Below are positions 7,075 through 14,071 of a DNA stretch of 15,399 bases, in pieces; position 1 is the first letter of the stretch, and each line of letters begins with the position of its first letter. The notes under the pieces were generated by a model. It saw only the letters and a program-made list of their open reading frames with translations. It made no database searches and was not told where the DNA came from. The DNA lies in the NCBI GenBank assembly GCA_946545505.1, contig CAMNNN010000008.1, forward strand, positions 1 through 15,399, read 5' to 3'. The DNA comes from an uncultured Clostridia bacterium (lineage in GTDB: Bacteria; Bacillota; Clostridia; Saccharofermentanales; Saccharofermentanaceae). A program made the position numbers and the translations under genes.

Positions 7075-8262
7075 TTATCGAAGCAGCGGATCTATGATCG
7101 AGTATGCGTAGCTGGCGGCCGTAAGGAAGCCGTTTGCCGGATACTCGTCAAGAGAATCGGAATCCATACCGAGCCTGAAGACCTCGGGTTCGGCGAAGTC
7201 ATATGCCCAGCAGATCTCATCACCGCACATGGCATCATCGAACATATAGGTGTTGTTTCCGTCCGTGAACACGAGGACGGAACGTCCGATATTGTGCTCA
7301 TCGAGGGGGCCGTAATACTCATACGAGTTGCTGTCCTCATAGTAGATGGCGGTCTCAGGCTCGAAGTTATCGTTGCTCATCTCGAATGAGAGAATCGCAA
7401 GATAAGCGAGTGTGTTCGAGAGCTGATTCCTTGTAAGATCCATATTCTCGTATTCGGTAGCACTTATGAACTGGAAGGTAACCAGTTTTCTGAATGTCTC
7501 TCTGTCGAATGTGGCAGACTGACCGAAGTATCCGCTGGCCACAAGATTCTCCTCGAGAGCATCACATATCTCGCCGAAGTCGGAGTTGAACATCTCGAAG
7601 TCGTCAGGAATACCGTCTTCATATTCGATCGTGGCACAAGCGAGTTCTTCGTCAACTTCAATATCCGTCCATTCATTCTCGATATTACTAACGCCGTTCT
7701 CGTAACGCTCATCCAGGGTATCGAGTTCCTCCGAGAGATTCTCGAAGAATGAAGCTATATCTCCGCTGTCGGTTTTCTCGGAAGCTGCCTGTATAGCCGG
7801 CCAGCAGACCAGTACTTCGATTGCTATAAACAATGTAAGAAGTCCTGATATGATCAGACCTGCGATGGCAAATCCCATACCCTTCTTATTCTTCTTCGAA
7901 GCTGAAACAAGTCCTGCTATGGACAGGATCAATCCGATAACGGCAGTAAAACCGCAGCAGAATATAGATACCAGTGACACAACGAAGCCTGCCATGGCAA
8001 GGCCGCTCATGGTCGGCACATCTTCCATAACAGGTCTATATACAGACTGATCGTATCCACCGCTTCCCTGCTGATTACTCTGCCCGTACGCTGACTCATA
8101 CGTAGGCTTATAAACATCCTCTGCCGGTGTATACGAAGCAGCCGGCTGTTCTATGGGCTGTTCTATGGGTTGTTCAACAATCTCCGGAAACTTGGAGCCG
8201 CAGTGTGAGCAGAACCTCGTGTTGTCTTCGCTTGCACTTCCGCAGTGACTACAATACTTCAT
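7075..8262 (-). CDS. Zinc-ribbon membrane protein with DUF4190-like segment and unrecognised acidic C-terminal domain
   Basis: Function unknown. Parts of the 395 residues: a double zinc ribbon with Cys4, Cys7, Cys18 and Cys21 in two CSHCGS motifs; EQPI repeats (29-40); a Tyr/Gln/Ser/Pro-rich linker to about 84; a hydrophobic block at 87-118 and another at 128-155, separated by SKKNKKG, a pattern like DUF4190 membrane hairpins; then a soluble domain (about 160-395) rich in Asp and Glu with few basic residues, which I do not recognise. The zinc ribbon is probably cytosolic; the side of the acidic domain depends on the number of helices. The ATG has AAGGGA about 9 nt upstream. The stop lies 12 nt from the inverted repeat around the rpmH promoter. 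Divergent from the VTC operon. Confidence 0.85.
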   Translation of the reverse strand: MKYCSHCGSASEDNTRFCSHCGSKFPEIVEQPIEQPIEQPAASYTPAEDVYKPTYESAYGQSNQQGSGGYDQSVYRPVMEDVPTMSGLAMAGFVVSLVSIFCCGFTAVIGLILSIAGLVSASKKNKKGMGFAIAGLIISGLLTLFIAIEVLVCWPAIQAASEKTDSGDIASFFENLSEELDTLDERYENGVSNIENEWTDIEVDEELACATIEYEDGIPDDFEMFNSDFGEICDALEENLVASGYFGQSATFDRETFRKLVTFQFISATEYENMDLTRNQLSNTLAYLAILSFEMSNDNFEPETAIYYEDSNSYEYYGPLDEHNIGRSVLVFTDGNNTYMFDDAMCGDEICWAYDFAEPEVFRLGMDSDSLDEYPANGFLTAASYAYSIIDPLLR

Positions 8263-8414
8263 AATCTATCCCTTCCCTTAAACAAGAACTTTATGGGAAT
8301 ACGTTTTTGAATCCCCACTTCAACAGTATACATAATTGTCGATTTCTTTTCATTCTTTAAGTTTCGTTTTAAGTTCGCCCTGTAAGATATGCTCAACAAC
8401 AGGAGGAACATGAG
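8263..8414. promoter_or_regulatory. Divergent intergenic region with TTTAAGTT direct repeats
   Basis: This 152 nt gap separates the divergent zinc-ribbon and VTC genes, so promoters in both directions are expected. Two TTTAAGTT copies (8356-8363 and 8368-8375) lie 12 bp apart start to start, about one helical turn, like direct-repeat sites of response regulators. A TAAGAT at 8383-8388 is a possible -10 for the plus strand, without a good -35. For the minus strand, TATACT (on the complement of the stretch around 8325) is a weak -10 candidate. No riboswitch pattern was recognised. Confidence 0.3.
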
Positions 8415-9149
8415 ATGAGTCACATTGATGTTTTCAAAAGATATGAATATAAATACCTGCTCGACGTATCCTCGAAGGCCAAGCTTCTCGAAGTTCTTGA
8501 AGGACACATGAAGCTCGACGAGTACGGAAAGACGACTATAAGAAACGTTTACTACGATACTCCGGATTACGCTCTCATAAGAAAGTCTCTCGAGAAGCCC
8601 GTTTATAAGGAGAAGCTTCGCGTCAGATCCTACAGCAAGGTCACAGAGAATGACAACGTGTATGTAGAGATCAAGAAAAAATACATGGGCATCGTCTACA
8701 AAAGAAGAACGGCTGTTAGAGAATATCAGGCGGAAGGCTGGCTCGAGGGCACCTTCCCTCAACCTTATATCTCGCAGATAGCAGACGAGATCGAGTACTT
8801 CAGAAGATTATATAAGGATTTAAGACCTTCCTGCTTCCTTTCCTACGAGCGCGAATCATACTACGCGACGGACGGAAGCGGTCTAAGACTTACGATGGAC
8901 GAGAAGATCTTGGGCAGGACCTGCGACATATCGCTTACCGAAGGCGTGTACGGTGACAGGATAATCTCTCCGGGGTGCACACTTCTAGAACTTAAGACAT
9001 CAGGCGCCATCCCTTTGTATCTTACGAAATTCCTAAGCGAAAACGACATCGCGCGGACATCATTCTCGAAGTACGGTTCCTACTACGAGAACAAGATCAG
9101 AAAAGCATCCCGCGTAACAACAATCGAAGGAGGACTTCTATATGCTTAA
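8415..9149 (+). CDS. VTC domain protein (polyphosphate-polymerase-like triphosphate tunnel enzyme)
   Basis: The yeast VTC4 homologue makes polyphosphate from ATP inside a tunnel lined with basic and acidic residues; the bacterial proteins are named by similarity and their product is mostly unproven. The 244 residues show the family pattern: RYEYKYLL (9-16) with Lys13, YYDTPDYALIR (46-56), KEKLRVRSY (65-73) with paired Arg69 and Arg71, YVEIKKKY (83-90), YKRR (95-98), YERESYY (144-150), RLTMDEKI (158-165), LLELKTSG (190-197), and FSKY (217-220). The charged residues needed for binding triphosphate and metal therefore appear intact. There is no membrane segment or signal peptide. AGGAGG (8401-8406) is 8 nt before the ATG; the out-of-frame ATG at 8410 is too close. 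The 3' end overlaps the DUF4956 gene by 8 nt. Confidence 0.93.
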   Translation: MSHIDVFKRYEYKYLLDVSSKAKLLEVLEGHMKLDEYGKTTIRNVYYDTPDYALIRKSLEKPVYKEKLRVRSYSKVTENDNVYVEIKKKYMGIVYKRRTAVREYQAEGWLEGTFPQPYISQIADEIEYFRRLYKDLRPSCFLSYERESYYATDGSGLRLTMDEKILGRTCDISLTEGVYGDRIISPGCTLLELKTSGAIPLYLTKFLSENDIARTSFSKYGSYYENKIRKASRVTTIEGGLLYA

Positions 9150-9786
9150 CACTACGGATTTTATTATATACATTGCAGTCGCACTCGGGCTCGGCATAGT
9201 TATCGCAGCCTCTTACATGTTCAAGACGAAGACGAGCAGATCTTTTCTCGCGACACTGGCTTTGCTTCCCGCTCTTGTCAGTGTCATCATCATGATGGTC
9301 AACGGCAGCATCGGAGCAGGAGTCGCCGTGGCAGGCACCTTCAGTCTGGTTCGCTTCAGATCCGCTCCCGGCACTGCCCGCGAGATAACCGCCGTATTCC
9401 TGGCGATGGCAACCGGTCTTATCTGCGGTATGGGATATTTCGTATACGCAGGCATCTTCACGGCAATAATCTGCGTCGCCATGATGCTTCTTAAGGTCAC
9501 GGGCTTCGGCGACAGCAAGGACGAGAAAGAGCTTCACATCACAATCCCGGAAGACCTGGACTATGAAGGCGTCTTTGACGAGATTTTCGACAAGTACACA
9601 TCGGAAAGAAAGCTTATAAGCGTAAAGACCTCCGACATGGGAAGCCTGTTCCGCTTAAAGTACACATTCACACTCAAAAACGGGATGAGTGAAAAGGATT
9701 TCATCGACAAATTAAGAGTGCGTAACGGTAATCTTCCCATCGCCGTATGCGTATCGCAGCTTACCGAATCATCGGCACAGCTTTAA
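9142..9786 (+). CDS. DUF4956 membrane protein
   Basis: Function unknown. The 214 residues hold hydrophobic segments at about 6-24, 36-54, 56-70 and 82-118, then a soluble domain (about 125-214) probably in the cytosol. The motif GTFSLVRFRSAPGTARE (65-81) between membrane segments is the signature of DUF4956 and carries conserved Arg residues that could contact an anionic substrate. The start is ATG at 9142 with AAGGAGG about 8 nt upstream, inside the end of the VTC gene; the 8 nt overlap implies coupled translation. DUF4956 proteins commonly neighbour VTC-domain genes in Firmicutes, which suggests the two act together, for example in moving or anchoring the VTC product. This role is inferred. 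Confidence 0.92.
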   Translation: MLNTTDFIIYIAVALGLGIVIAASYMFKTKTSRSFLATLALLPALVSVIIMMVNGSIGAGVAVAGTFSLVRFRSAPGTAREITAVFLAMATGLICGMGYFVYAGIFTAIICVAMMLLKVTGFGDSKDEKELHITIPEDLDYEGVFDEIFDKYTSERKLISVKTSDMGSLFRLKYTFTLKNGMSEKDFIDKLRVRNGNLPIAVCVSQLTESSAQL

Positions 9787-9807
9787 CAAGGAAAGGGGAT
9801 CACGACC

Positions 9808-11289
9808 ATGAAAAAGATCAGAACCATAGCATTATTCATAGCACTTGTCCTTCTTATGACAGGATGTGCAGAAGCTTCTTTAACGGCAGATAATACCGTA
9901 ACTGAGACAACACAGATCTCTTCCGAAGATTTGTATTCAGACCGCGACTTCGAGACCGATTATGACGAATCAGACGCCGTGCTGATATCATTGACTTCCG
10001 ATTCCGTCACTATCACGGAAGAAGGAACATATATCGTACAGGGAACTTTGGAAGACGGATCGATAATAATAGACGCAGGCGACGAGGATAAAGTACAGCT
10101 CATTCTGGACGGATGCTCAATTTCCTCTGCTTCATCAGCGGCAATCTATGTTAAGAATGCGGACAAAGTCTTTATCACCACAGCACAAGGAAGCGTAAAC
10201 ACACTTACCAACGTAACAGGATTCGAAGCCGACGAAGAATCCAATATCGACGGTGTCATATTCTCGAAGTCAGACCTTACTCTTAACGGAGAAGGAATCC
10301 TGATCATAAGCTCTTGTGATCACGGTATTGTAGGCAAAGACGATCTTGTCATAACAAGCGGAGAATATGAGATTGATTCGACAGGCGACGCTTTACAGGC
10401 GAACGATCTTATAGCTATATCAGACGGAACATTCACCATCAATTCGGGCGATGACGCTATCAGGTGCGACGCAGATCTTGTGATAGACGGCGGAACAATC
10501 GATATATTAAGTTCGAAAGAAGGTCTCGAGGGAAATACGATCACTATTAACGGAGGAGATATTACCCTTGAAGCTTCCGAAGACGGCATCAACGCATCCG
10601 GCGAATCGGGAGACACCATGATGTCGGATTCTTCCTGTCAGATCTATATCACAGGAGGAACTGTCAGCATCACGACTTACGGCGACGGTATCGACTCGAA
10701 TGGTGATCTTACGATCACAGGCGGATATATAACAGTCAGCGGTCCCGAGAATTCCGGTAACGGCTCTCTTGATTATGCAGGCACAGGCACTATAACGGGC
10801 GGTACCATCATCGCGGCCGGCATATCGGGAATGGAAATGAATATGACCGAAGCAACCCAGGGATCCATCCTCGTATCAACAGGCAATCAATCCGCGGGAA
10901 CTGAGATAACAGTGACGGATGCATCCGACAACGAGATCATAAGCTTTACGCCGTCGACATCTTATTCCTGTGTTCTAATAAGCTCTCCTGAACTTCAGGT
11001 CGGGCAGACATACACGATATCATCAGGCTCCTCTTCACAAGATGTCACATTGGATGATTATATTTATGGTCAATCCATGGGATTCGGCGGATTTGGCGGA
11101 GGATTCGGCGGTCCCGGCGGACAGATGCCCGACGGACAAATGCCTGATATGTCAGACTTTGACGGGCAGATGCCGTCTGACTTTAACGGCGAACGGCCCG
11201 AACTTCCGGGCTCCGACGGCCAGACTCCTCCCGACTTACCCGAAGGCTTCGACGGTCAGACCCCGCCTGAACCTCCCTCGGGGCGTTGA
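9808..11289 (+). CDS. Secreted lipoprotein with Cthe_2159-type carbohydrate-binding beta-helix and Gly/Pro/Gln tail
   Basis: Similar to Cthe_2159 of Clostridium thermocellum, a calcium-dependent parallel beta-helix that binds cellulose and pectin-like polymers. The 493 residues start with a lipoprotein signal peptide ending in LLMTGC (Cys20). An acidic linker leads to a beta-helix (about 55-345) with repeated rungs such as DHGI (171-174), GDAL (193-196), DDAIR (215-219), EDGIN (258-262) and GDGID (292-296), each followed by a GG-turn. Asp-rich turns could bind calcium. After a small beta domain (about 350-417), the tail from about 424 is Gly/Phe-rich and then carries GQMPD and DGQTPP repeats. 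The ribosome binding site is AAAGGGG. The gene is 21 nt after DUF4956 and last in the operon; its TGA directly abuts the convergent gene's stop. Confidence 0.88.
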   Translation: MKKIRTIALFIALVLLMTGCAEASLTADNTVTETTQISSEDLYSDRDFETDYDESDAVLISLTSDSVTITEEGTYIVQGTLEDGSIIIDAGDEDKVQLILDGCSISSASSAAIYVKNADKVFITTAQGSVNTLTNVTGFEADEESNIDGVIFSKSDLTLNGEGILIISSCDHGIVGKDDLVITSGEYEIDSTGDALQANDLIAISDGTFTINSGDDAIRCDADLVIDGGTIDILSSKEGLEGNTITINGGDITLEASEDGINASGESGDTMMSDSSCQIYITGGTVSITTYGDGIDSNGDLTITGGYITVSGPENSGNGSLDYAGTGTITGGTIIAAGISGMEMNMTEATQGSILVSTGNQSAGTEITVTDASDNEIISFTPSTSYSCVLISSPELQVGQTYTISSGSSSQDVTLDDYIYGQSMGFGGFGGGFGGPGGQMPDGQMPDMSDFDGQMPSDFNGERPELPGSDGQTPPDLPEGFDGQTPPEPPSGR

Positions 11290-12567
11290 TCAGCCGGCGA
11301 GCGCCATAAGCTCTCGCTGGATCTGCGCCGCTGTTTCTTCAAGAGTAGCTTCATCATAGATATACATATCGCTCAGATTCTTAAAGATATCCAGGAAATC
11401 CGAATTCTCCAGCATGGGATTAATAAGATTCATATTGGCTATATTATCCGATATAAACTCTCCTGCCTCATATTCGATTCCGCCGAGCAAACCGTTATCG
11501 ATAAGAGCCTGCCTGGCAGCCGCACTTACCGGAATTCCCTTCTCTGTTCCCTGAAGGATCGCGAATTCCGGATCGTTCAAAAGAAAGTTCACCAGTCTGC
11601 CGCAGGCTTCAGGGTCCCTGCAGTCAATGCTTATGGCATACATCGTCGCAGGTTTGATATACCACTCGCTCTGATCGTCCAAAGAGATCCTTAAATACTC
11701 TCCTATCACTACATTCATTCCGTCATCGATAGCAGGCTGACAGTATCTTAATGAATCGCTGGCCCAACAGACGGTACCTGCAACCCTTCCGTCTTCAAGG
11801 TCACTGACATTGAAATTATAAAGAGGCATAATTACCCTACGGTCTGTGAGTTCTTTGTAGAATTCCAGGATCATCGAGATATCTTCTGTTGTTCCTATGT
11901 AGGTTCCTTCATCATCAAACAACGTTCTTCCCGTGGTCTGTTCAAACCATGCATTAAGAAGAAGGAACAAGTGCTTATTCACCATACCCAGCACATAGAT
12001 ATCATCCCGGCTCATTACATCTGCCGCCTCGAACAGATCATCCCACGTCATCGGTATATCAAGTCCGTACGAGGCAAACATATCAGCATTATAGAACATA
12101 CAGATCGTATTATAGGCTATGGGAAGTGCATTAAGGTGTCCGTTTCTCATTCCTGTAGCGAGATCTTCCTGAGAGAACTGTGACAGGTCGATATACTCTG
12201 AAAGCTGATTGATATCATAGTAACCCATACCGTCGGAGGAATACTCTGATAGCCATGCATAATTGATCTGCATTACATCGCAGTTGTTATGGGATGCCAT
12301 CTGCATCAAATATCTTCTCTCATATCCGTTCCATATACCGTAAGAATGGTTAACGATAATGTCGGGATTGTTCTCCTGGAATAAAGACAACCCCTGCAAA
12401 GTGTACTCATGTCTGGGGTCGTTTCCCCACCATGACATTGAGATAACGGCCGACTGCTCCTGGGCACTTATCCTTACCTTGGACACATCAGAAGAACATG
12501 ATGCTATGGGAAGCATAAACATCAACACAGCCATCAAAGAAGAAAAAATCTTAATGTGTCTACGCAT
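11290..12567 (-). CDS. Extracellular solute-binding lipoprotein, SBP family 1 (sugar ABC-type)
   Basis: Substrate-capturing lipoprotein of the kind that feeds sugar ABC importers. The 425 residues begin with a basic n-region (RRHIK), a hydrophobic core and the lipobox IASC (Cys24). The mature protein has features of SBP_bac_1: SWWGND near the start (45-50), a FQENNPDI segment (63-70), LPIAYNTICMFYNADMF (148-164), and the hinge-proximal DIPMTWDDLFEAADVM (170-185). The likely ligand is a saccharide, but the sequence does not identify it. GAGG about 8 nt before the ATG overlaps the diguanylate cyclase stop, and the gap is only 10 nt, so the two genes are one operon. No ABC permease or ATPase gene is in the window. 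Confidence 0.9.
   Translation of the reverse strand: MRRHIKIFSSLMAVLMFMLPIASCSSDVSKVRISAQEQSAVISMSWWGNDPRHEYTLQGLSLFQENNPDIIVNHSYGIWNGYERRYLMQMASHNNCDVMQINYAWLSEYSSDGMGYYDINQLSEYIDLSQFSQEDLATGMRNGHLNALPIAYNTICMFYNADMFASYGLDIPMTWDDLFEAADVMSRDDIYVLGMVNKHLFLLLNAWFEQTTGRTLFDDEGTYIGTTEDISMILEFYKELTDRRVIMPLYNFNVSDLEDGRVAGTVCWASDSLRYCQPAIDDGMNVVIGEYLRISLDDQSEWYIKPATMYAISIDCRDPEACGRLVNFLLNDPEFAILQGTEKGIPVSAAARQALIDNGLLGGIEYEAGEFISDNIANMNLINPMLENSDFLDIFKNLSDMYIYDEATLEETAAQIQRELMALAG
11294..11320. repeat. Inverted repeat just past the convergent stop codons
   Basis: CCGGCGAG (11294-11301) and CTCGCTGG (11313-11320) pair over 8 bp with one G-U, around an 11 nt loop. It lies within the last codons of the solute-binding gene and directly downstream of the beta-helix gene. 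No T tract follows in either direction, so it is at most a weak transcript end or RNA-stabilising element. Confidence 0.3.
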
Positions 12568-12577
12568 TCACTTTACC

Positions 12578-14041
12578 TCAGATAAATGTCGGCTTGGACT
12601 TGCCGTTACGCTTCGATATATAAAGGGCAACATCCGTCTTCTGATACAGATCGTCGAACTTATAATCGCCTGCACCGGTAACGAGCACTCCGCTTGAGAC
12701 CGAGAGTCGGAACTTTTCATTCTCTTCCTTGAACCTGATATCAAACCTGTCATAAAGCTTCATGGTAAGATCGTGCATCCTCTTCTCTGCTTCATCGCGG
12801 CTGATATCCGTATACGACTTATAAACGGCGAATTCATCACCGCCGATGCGGCCTATCAAAGCCTCTTCTTCGCCGAATACTTCCCTTAGCAGATCCGCCA
12901 TTCTCTTGATTACTTCATCACCGAATTTATGACCCGCCGCATCGTTGACCTCTTTAAAGTTATCAAGGTCAAACATAAGGAAAGCAATTGCCTGTTTGCC
13001 GCTGAATGCTGACAGGTCGTTCTCGGCTAATTGCCTGAATGTGCTCTTGTTCAGAAGATTCGTCATCAGATCATTCTTTGCCTGATGATCAAGATCTTCC
13101 ACAACATCGGTAACCGAATGATTAAGTCTGCTCATTATGAGGAGCATAGTAAGAACGACGAGCACCGTTATAAGCAAAACTACTATGATCAGATTCTTCG
13201 TCGCAGCCACCTGATCGGCCATGATAGAAGAAGACGGCATCGAACACACGACCTTCCAGCCGTTTGACAAGCGGTTGGAAGTGATCAGGTAATCGTTGTT
13301 GATCGCGGTTATGCCGACATTATCGCCTATGATCTGTGTAAGCTCGGGATTCAGGACAGTTGCTGTTTCTTCGGAAGCAGTCGAATAGATAACATAATCA
13401 TCCTCAGTTACCAGTCTGACACTCATGTCGGACAGCTCGTTAGGTACGGCAAGAACATTCTCAAGCTCTGAGATATAGAAAGACACAACGCATACCGCAT
13501 TCGGATTAAGTCTCTTAACATAGTAGATGCGGTCCGTGTTCTCGAAAACATTAACCAGCCATGCATCCTGCTTAAGATTATCTTCGGGAATGACTGAAGA
13601 GAAATACGAATAGATACTGCTGTCTTTAAACATCTGTCCCGTAGTCTGAGATATCCAGCCCGTAGAGCTGTCATTTGCATAGACAATACCGAAGTCGCAG
13701 AAATTATTCATCATGCCAAGATCGACGATCCTGTTAAGTATAAGCGTCTCGCCTTGGATCTTCTCATAATCGCTCAACGACGGATCAGAAGCATCATAAA
13801 GATAATAATCCTTATCCGAGAACAACAAAGCCGTTACCTGCTGAACATTGTTAAGATAACTGTCTACATTGAGCTCCATCTGATGAGCATCGGCGGAAAT
13901 AAAATATGATATCTTGTCTTCCGTGGTACGCCTTACCGAACGAAGCAGAACGAAGGAGATAATTATTGACAACAGAATAATGCCGAATGCAACGACCAGA
14001 GAATAGATAATCTGAGTAAGACGTAAATTCTTGAGTTTCAT
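12578..14041 (-). CDS. Membrane diguanylate cyclase with extracytoplasmic Cache-like sensor (GGDEF)
   Basis: Makes cyclic di-GMP from two GTP. Using the ATG at 14041 (487 residues): membrane helix 11-34, extracytoplasmic sensor region 35-282 resembling double-Cache domains, second helix 283-303, then a GGDEF domain. Catalytic features are intact: DLMTNLLNK (324-332), FDLDNFKEVND (357-367), and GRIGGDEFAVY with GGDEF at 400-404. The inhibitory I-site (RxxD five residues before GGDEF) is replaced by EEEA (391-394), so classical product inhibition is unlikely. I prefer 14041 because AAGGG lies 8 nt upstream; an in-frame ATG at 14071 has no good site and overlaps the promoter. Followed 10 nt later by a solute-binding lipoprotein. 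Confidence 0.93.
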   Translation of the reverse strand: MKLKNLRLTQIIYSLVVAFGIILLSIIISFVLLRSVRRTTEDKISYFISADAHQMELNVDSYLNNVQQVTALLFSDKDYYLYDASDPSLSDYEKIQGETLILNRIVDLGMMNNFCDFGIVYANDSSTGWISQTTGQMFKDSSIYSYFSSVIPEDNLKQDAWLVNVFENTDRIYYVKRLNPNAVCVVSFYISELENVLAVPNELSDMSVRLVTEDDYVIYSTASEETATVLNPELTQIIGDNVGITAINNDYLITSNRLSNGWKVVCSMPSSSIMADQVAATKNLIIVVLLITVLVVLTMLLIMSRLNHSVTDVVEDLDHQAKNDLMTNLLNKSTFRQLAENDLSAFSGKQAIAFLMFDLDNFKEVNDAAGHKFGDEVIKRMADLLREVFGEEEALIGRIGGDEFAVYKSYTDISRDEAEKRMHDLTMKLYDRFDIRFKEENEKFRLSVSSGVLVTGAGDYKFDDLYQKTDVALYISKRNGKSKPTFI

Positions 14042-14061
14042 ATCAAGTACCCTTAAACAAG

Positions 14062-14070
14062 AGTATAACA
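14062..14070 (-). promoter_or_regulatory. Extended -10 promoter for the cyclase/solute-binding operon
   Basis: Minus strand: TG (14070-14069), one base, then TATACT (14067-14062). No convincing -35 is present. The predicted start lies about 7 nt downstream, leaving a leader of roughly 15 nt that contains the AAGGG ribosome binding site of the ATG at 14041. This placement is the main reason for rejecting the longer start at 14071. Confidence 0.5.
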
Positions 14071-14071
14071 T

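Follow-up and report, generated by a model that had tools for sequence, protein, structure and literature searches.

We analysed a three-gene operon in a 15,399-nucleotide stretch of DNA (contig CAMNNN010000008.1 of assembly GCA_946545505.1, hereafter the window) from an uncultured, gut-type Clostridia bacterium of the family Saccharofermentanaceae. The operon encodes a VTC-type triphosphate tunnel enzyme, a DUF4956 membrane protein and a Cthe_2159 beta-helix lipoprotein (Table 1), and it appears to represent one branch of a system found in many genomes, in which a core of two genes, VTC and DUF4956, would serve an exported third protein. Across genomes the third gene is most often a CotH or a Cthe_2159 gene, and which of the two is present follows the clade of the VTC-DUF4956 pair. 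This is very probably a real, conserved module tied to an exported partner; what the core may supply to that partner is discussed below in more tentative terms.

VTC and DUF4956 genes are neighbours across the phylum

We tabulated the neighbours of DUF4956, called by a clean profile at a stricter cut, in three sets of loci: a phylum sample of 199 genomes, the window with its relatives, and a set of named loci (L codes denote loci and G codes genomes in this analysis). DUF4956 was present in 27 of the 199 genomes of the phylum sample, the window's own included, and 32 loci other than the window's were classified. VTC was adjacent to DUF4956 in 31 of these 32, and the third gene was CotH in 19, Cthe_2159 in seven, both in one (L164) and neither in five. 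Among 270 background genes lying at least four places from DUF4956 in the same sample there were no VTC, CotH or Cthe_2159 genes, which rules out chance neighbours. The conserved co-occurrence of the families, on which an earlier note on this DNA had made its proposal depend, was thereby borne out. That note had also named CotH-type kinases as frequent companions of such genes and had called them absent here; CotH proved to be the alternative occupant of the third position, and in the window that position holds Cthe_2159, with no CotH found in the organism's own genome, which is 70% complete.

The window and its relatives gave 41 regions with 38 full DUF4956 genes, after L051, L058 and L061, without a full-length DUF4956, were left out. 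VTC was adjacent in 38 of 38 (36 by script and two found otherwise), and the third gene was Cthe_2159 in 19, CotH in 12 and neither in seven, two of these at contig ends. For the named loci we took the best 80 out of at least 337 matches to DUF4956 of the window's type; VTC was found by script in 76 and by tblastn in one more, and both VTC and Cthe_2159 were present in 67, a number that says little about frequency because these loci were chosen as the closest, so that the phylum sample is the fair one. Named loci of the Cthe_2159 type include those of Ruminococcus torques ATCC 27756, Chakrabartyella piscis and Streptococcus cristatus. The VTC genes of L040, L059 and L151 were missed by the picking of open reading frames and recovered by tblastn; no VTC was found by tblastn in 2.2 kb of L109, and contig ends interrupt L096 and L122.

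Three of the phylum loci with neither partner (L171, L172 and L181) form a sub-branch in which DUF4956 is followed by VTC and then by a Lamin Tail Domain protein, a domain that is fused to CotH in L057. L175 has unrelated genes there, and L178 meets a contig end. The third position of L110 holds a Listeria-Bacteroides-repeat/SH3 protein, and the R. torques cassette is flanked by genes for an arylsulfotransferase and a RelA/SpoT-type protein (L081:5538-7157 and L081:10624-11289).

The third gene follows the clade of the pair

A FastTree phylogeny was built from 140 concatenated VTC-DUF4956 pairs, representing those of 150 DUF4956 genes that had VTC adjacent by script and both proteins at least 190 amino acids long. 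Partner labels could be given to 119 rows, 29 with CotH and 90 with Cthe_2159, the other 21 having neither partner (20 rows) or both (one row), and these labels required a single change on the tree. FastTree issued a long-branch warning for this tree, in which the labels follow a long, starred branch and two rows (L034 and L072) are identical. Quick IQ-TREE trees built separately for each of the two proteins (67 rows) also required one label change each. Both kinds of cassette occurred together within one genome in G157 (L165; L176, L190), G078 (L163; L188), G231 (L167; L192), G158 (L170; L182), G046 (L052; L062) and G058 (L053; L070). Outside the CotH clade, 58 of the 105 pairs with VTC first had an overlap of exactly 8 nucleotides between VTC and DUF4956; none of the 29 such pairs inside that clade had it. 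In 85 Cthe_2159 cassettes, pairwise distances of VTC and DUF4956 were strongly correlated (Mantel r 0.82), with a correlation of 0.39 between each of them and Cthe_2159.

Among 59 genomes (the window's own and 58 relatives), VTC was present in 34 and CotH in 11, all of them VTC-positive, and 13 of 14 CotH genes, counted from rows, lay in VTC-DUF4956 loci, the exception being G045:C84. Of the 35 genomes of the window's genus, 22 have VTC, and 20 of these gave a strong Cthe_2159 match (E under 1e-10), as did one of the 13 that lack VTC, an association that is partly trivial because the genes share an operon. Among 14 named control genomes, VTC and DUF4956 matched in the same three; CotH was found in two of those three and in Bacillus subtilis, and Cthe_2159 only in the third, Bacteroides ihuae.

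Exported CotH proteins occur mostly in genomes that carry the pair

An N-terminal hydrophobic stretch was present in 32 of 32 CotH proteins, and 80 of 97 Cthe_2159 genes encoded a lipobox. In the phylum sample, 26 of 199 genomes had CotH above the cut-off, and in 23 of these CotH was exported, as judged by a hydrophobic stretch or lipobox; VTC and DUF4956 were present in 22 of the 23, against the base rate for DUF4956 given above. This count was made by hand on related genomes (the 22 fall into 13 family codes), so that the p value of Fisher's test on it serves as no more than a guide, and export was called by a hydrophobicity scan instead of a signal-peptide program, with 21 cassette and nine off-cassette genes assigned by score and that of G126 by its lipobox. 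Short CotH proteins without a hydrophobic stretch (L193, L194, L195 and L196) came from four genomes, of which two have the pair. L198 (G115, internal stop) and G218 (below the cut-off) were left out. A 200-amino-acid reading frame of L046 that the profile had labelled CotH was likewise not counted, as a Pfam search did not support it (which gave no CotH in G019). The correlation between exported CotH and the pair fits a supply of phosphate donor, as a cytosolic kinase has ATP and an exported one should not.

Features of the three proteins

The earlier note had described the three products as a tunnel enzyme with an apparently complete set of charged residues, a membrane protein with a conserved arginine-rich motif and a secreted beta-helix lipoprotein, and each description was supported. 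The tunnel residues, whose loss in an alignment the note would have counted as a refutation, were largely retained. The VTC protein matched PF09359 at 122.8 bits (curated cut-off 23), and among tunnel enzymes its tunnel fold was closest to Vtc proteins. Of the 22 conserved positions looked up in an alignment with yeast Vtc4, 17 were identical, the alignment covering Vtc4 to about residue 451, being of low certainty around E192-K194 and stopping before S218-K219. Identical residues (window/Vtc4) include R9/R196, K13/K200, R69/R264, R71/R266, E85/E279, K87/K281, K96/K294, R146/R361, R158/R373, D162/D377, E192/E426 and K194/K428, and those that differ are E11/T198, D35/L222, K67/A262, K89/H283 and T160/S375. 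R264, R266 and E426 are residues that were changed to impair yeast VTC (PMC9911596). A Pfam scan of the 244-amino-acid protein yielded VTC and a sub-threshold CYTH match, with no SPX or membrane domain. The window's system thus resembles the eukaryotic complex of Vtc1, Vtc3 and Vtc4 (PMC9911596) in its tunnel domain fold, in most mapped residues and in having a membrane partner with conserved basic residues, but differs in that no SPX or fused Vtc1-like membrane domain was found in its VTC protein and in that its putative membrane partner is a separate MgtC-like protein. The VTC gene of the CotH-type locus of G048 (L056:7840-8604) is broken by one stop codon.

The DUF4956 protein matched PF16316 at 63.7 bits (curated cut-off 30.6). 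An AF2 model (pLDDT confidence score 80.6) predicted five membrane-length helices and a C-terminal ferredoxin/ACT-like domain, with R71-F72-R73 at the end of predicted helix 3. In both clades the conservation of these three residues, and of G65, F86 and G92, is 95% or higher, and the location of the positively charged loops suggests a cytosolic position for both the RFR motif and the C-terminal domain. An hhalign comparison of DUF4956 with an alignment of six MgtC proteins from relatives gave a probability of 96.6% and an E-value of 5.9e-10 over 196 columns; the hidden Markov model A2 matched MgtC proteins with a best E-value of 4e-8 and the reverse search with 4.7e-6 (both for about 1,600 proteins). 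MgtC (PF02308) was not listed in a Pfam scan of the window protein with E-values up to 0.01. The fold was unusable as evidence of MgtC homology, since the C-terminal domain, for which 2lqj served as the MgtC reference, is a common fold and the membrane half has no outstanding solved match, so that the case rests on profiles; by profile homology over its full length, DUF4956 is a remote relative of MgtC. It shares with MgtC/SapB (PF02308) this full-length profile similarity and the predicted arrangement of membrane helices followed by a C-terminal ACT-like domain, but judged by eye it does not retain the AG-x-RT motif of MgtC, and RFR is peculiar to DUF4956. MgtC genes in L052, L053 and L089 were at first labelled DUF4956 under too wide a label and were set aside.

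The lipoprotein matched PF14262 at 222.5 bits (curated cut-off 25.8) and, by phmmer, the Cthe_2159 protein of Clostridium thermocellum (4peu) at an E-value of 1.8e-26 over residues 7-257. It belongs to the same family as that protein but differs from it at D200, D215, E238 and E241, which are aligned to G, A, D and D. The window protein carries a ladder of acidic and amide residues (D156, D216, E238, E241, D259, N262, D293, D296, N298 and D322) and ends in a Gly/Pro-rich acidic C-terminal tail. Seven of these residues (E238, E241, D259, N262, D293, D296 and N298) are invariant across 85 of the 86 cassette copies that were aligned, the last copy having a gap there, and the lipoprotein Cys20 is kept in 83 of the 86. 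In eight copies located off the pair, E238, E241, D258, D259, N262, D293, D296, N298 and D322 are identical, and elsewhere the ladder varies or is incomplete in some of them. The window copy has E for D258, unique among the 86, and R for the usual H219 (window 10462-10581).

Relation to the Pel-associated cassette

The CotH version of this cassette is already published beside Pel genes. The text of PMC7112168 available to us places CotH, a polyphosphate polymerase, DUF4956 and DUF4832 next to the Pel genes of streptococci and clostridia, and that of PMC12345266 reports that deletion of SIR_1592 or of the CotH gene (SIR_1594) in S. intermedius lowered aggregation, with Pel going up in the former and down in the latter. 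MgtC and ACT domains had already been read in SIR_1592 in that paper; the name DUF4956 does not appear in the portion available, and we infer from its place and domains that SIR_1592 is the streptococcal DUF4956 protein. The window's cassette is like the CotH-polyphosphate polymerase (VTC)-DUF4956 cassette of the Pel loci, as far as these two sources describe it, in having a gene of the polyphosphate polymerase type and DUF4956 side by side, together with an exported third protein, but its third protein is Cthe_2159 instead of CotH, it is without PelG above the cut-off, and it lies in the other deep clade of both VTC and DUF4956.

PMC12345266, in the part available, states that the three-gene synteny had not been encountered outside the Pel locus. 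We found the order CotH-VTC-DUF4956 in G039, G048 and G054, and the order VTC-DUF4956-CotH in G007, G028, G043, G044, G046 and G050, all without PelG above the cut-off (G007 having one weak match); CotH-VTC-DUF4956 adjoins PelG in L070 and L176. Three of the 59 genomes had PelG above the cut-off; the window's genus, with 35 genomes, contributed none of these and, in G007, one match below the cut-off, which rules out Pel dependence for the window's branch. No Pel genes were found among the scanned genes of the window, and no PelG above the cut-off in its incomplete genome. In Clostridium perfringens, a gene run given in PMC2879425, as far as its text was available, reads VTC-'tubulin'-resolvase-VTC-'tubulin'-CotH, and by their size the 'tubulin' genes may be DUF4956. 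Among papers naming at least two of the families Cthe_2159, CotH, VTC and MgtC, Cthe_2159 was paired with CotH alone, in PMC6712302, whose accessible text mentions them as two of many domains in anaerobic fungi. Among open-licence papers we found no report of the Cthe_2159 cassette, of partner fidelity or of the association of exported CotH with the pair; the window's cassette is a Cthe_2159 variant not found in the literature searched.

Operon layout and flanking genes

The tight operon that the earlier note had drawn was recovered in full: all three genes lie on one strand (Table 1), with an 8-nucleotide overlap between VTC and DUF4956 (9142-9149) and a 21-nucleotide gap before the third gene (9787-9807). 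Positions 9127-9149 encode, in the VTC frame, the region of the C-terminal tail GGLLYA and also contain the ribosome-binding site and start of DUF4956; this tail or the same arrangement was found in several relatives.

Table 1. Positions in the window of the operon, its translation signals and the divergent neighbour
Feature	Positions	Strand	Basis
Ribosome-binding site AGGAGG of the VTC gene	8401..8406	+	Read in sequence
VTC-type triphosphate tunnel enzyme, 244 amino acids, stand-alone	8415..9149	+	Pfam PF09359, E 2.2e-35
Ribosome-binding site AAGGAGG of DUF4956, within the VTC coding sequence	9127..9133	+	Sequence
DUF4956 membrane protein	9142..9786	+	Pfam PF16316, E 2.2e-17
Purine-rich ribosome-binding region of the third gene (Cthe_2159)	9788..9799	+	Sequence
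Cthe_2159 beta-helix lipoprotein, 493 amino acids, lipobox Cys20	9808..11289	+	Pfam PF14262, E 7.5e-66
Zinc-ribbon/DUF4190 protein, divergent neighbour	7075-8262	-	

Convergent to the operon are genes for a solute-binding lipoprotein, a GGDEF protein and a CitMHS-type transporter. The first two lie at window 11290-14071, and G030 has a gene pair of similar size and order at L032:8191-10943; upstream of the CotH-type cassette L064 lies a gene for a GGDEF protein that has a periplasmic-binding domain. Scans for terminators (two found, 3.2 expected) and for promoter-like sites (12 found, 7.3 expected, standard deviation 2.5) were not used, and Rfam and tRNA scans of the window gave no match.

A proposed function and its alternatives

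As the best explanation of the whole, held with a little less than even confidence, we propose that the VTC-DUF4956 core makes and exports polyphosphate for the exported third protein. VTC would act at the cytosolic face, adding the gamma-phosphate of a nucleotide to a growing polyphosphate chain, and the MgtC-like DUF4956 would dock VTC and pass the chain outward. The RFR motif, probably on the cytosolic side, would lie at the mouth, in a role like that of the basic channel residues of the yeast VTC complex. In the sister branch, the exported CotH kinase, presumably without ATP outside the cell, could take the chain as its phosphate donor. The anchored Cthe_2159 beta-helix of the window's branch would hold the chain, perhaps via metal ions on its acidic ladder. 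The proposal builds on what was observed of gene order, fold and homology, conserved residues, partner fidelity, export signals and co-occurrence. That polyphosphate is made and passed outward is, taken by itself, possible rather than probable. A bolder version, a transmembrane supply line in which VTC makes the chain, DUF4956 exports it to power exported CotH kinases, and a second ancient branch has replaced the kinase with a Cthe_2159 protein that captures or consumes it, we regard as unlikely. A role in bulk polyphosphate storage we rated low: PPK1 was found in 49 of the 59 genomes, the window's own included, so that cytosolic polyphosphate does not require VTC in the majority of these cells.

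Several observations weigh against polyphosphate export to a dedicated partner. We know of no MgtC relative that acts as a channel, and the window-type DUF4956 profile (A4) taken alone matches MgtC weakly (E-value 0.05 for about 1,600 proteins). Pairs with room downstream and neither partner make up five of 38 loci of the window and relatives, five of 80 named loci and four of 32 phylum loci. G126 encodes a lipoprotein CotH in a 93% complete genome with no VTC or DUF4956 match. The closest relative, G030 (DUF4956 96% identical), has kept VTC and DUF4956 and mostly lost its cassette Cthe_2159, of which remnants persist (L032:7388-8200). Relatives carry eight strong Cthe_2159 genes that lie apart from the pair on their contigs; at least two of these (G003 and G015) extend past a contig end and may belong to the cassette itself. 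The ligands reported for Cthe_2159, in the portion of PMC6712302 available, are cellulose and polygalacturonate, and its binding of polyphosphate is something we purely infer. In PMC12345266, deletion of SIR_1592 and of the CotH gene shifted Pel in opposite directions, while the available text tells no effect of deleting the VTC gene, SIR_1593.

The operon could also be a regulatory unit, in which the MgtC-like DUF4956 regulates a sensor kinase or the balance of ATP and phosphate, VTC senses or consumes nucleotides, and the surface protein is controlled via a neighbouring two-component system. A pair of OmpR-type regulator and HisKA kinase lies within five genes in 14 of the 32 loci of the phylum sample, in 20 of the 38 from the window and its relatives and in 48 of the 80 named ones; the off-cassette Cthe_2159 gene of G030 (L214:44-3027) adjoins a response regulator and histidine kinase like those flanking other cassettes; in the part of PMC12345266 available, Salmonella MgtC is said to act on PhoR and ATP synthase; and SIR_1592 deletion raised Pel. 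However, the window's operon has no adjacent two-component pair, more than half of the phylum loci have none within five genes, and regulation leaves unexplained why VTC keeps the Vtc4 residues and why the pair is faithful to one exported partner family. We consider this account improbable. Much the same probability attaches to modification of a surface polymer, with VTC as a phosphotransferase for an exported glycan or a lipid-linked precursor, DUF4956 moving or presenting the product, and CotH or Cthe_2159 finishing or binding it. The two loci adjoining PelG, the Pel genes of PMC7112168 and the binding of acidic sugars by Cthe_2159 reported in the available part of PMC6712302 favour such a role, but PelG is as rare in these genomes as described above, no constant glycan-making neighbour was seen among the neighbours identified, and the VTC residues match those of a polyphosphate polymerase.

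Cthe_2159 might, finally, be an adhesin for plant fibre, with VTC and DUF4956 merely on the same promoter, as the reported binding of cellulose and pectin-type sugars (PMC6712302, in part), the rumen origin of many relatives and the existence of Cthe_2159 genes away from the pair would allow. This is very unlikely, as the third gene follows the VTC-DUF4956 clade in 119 of 119 one-partner rows (L164 has both), strong Cthe_2159 matches in the genus are concentrated in genomes with VTC, and the cassette is also present in Streptococcus cristatus. To our knowledge, that species is not a degrader of plant fibre.

These results place the published Pel accessory genes in a wider, Pel-independent system, and give DUF4956 and Cthe_2159 a shared context. 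They bear on the phosphate donor of exported kinases and on the roles of bacterial VTC and DUF4956 proteins, and the strict pairing, together with the occurrence of exported CotH almost exclusively in genomes with the pair, makes the question of the donor directly testable. The conserved unit suggests, short of proof, that bacteria deliver polyphosphate across the membrane to proteins that work outside the cell.

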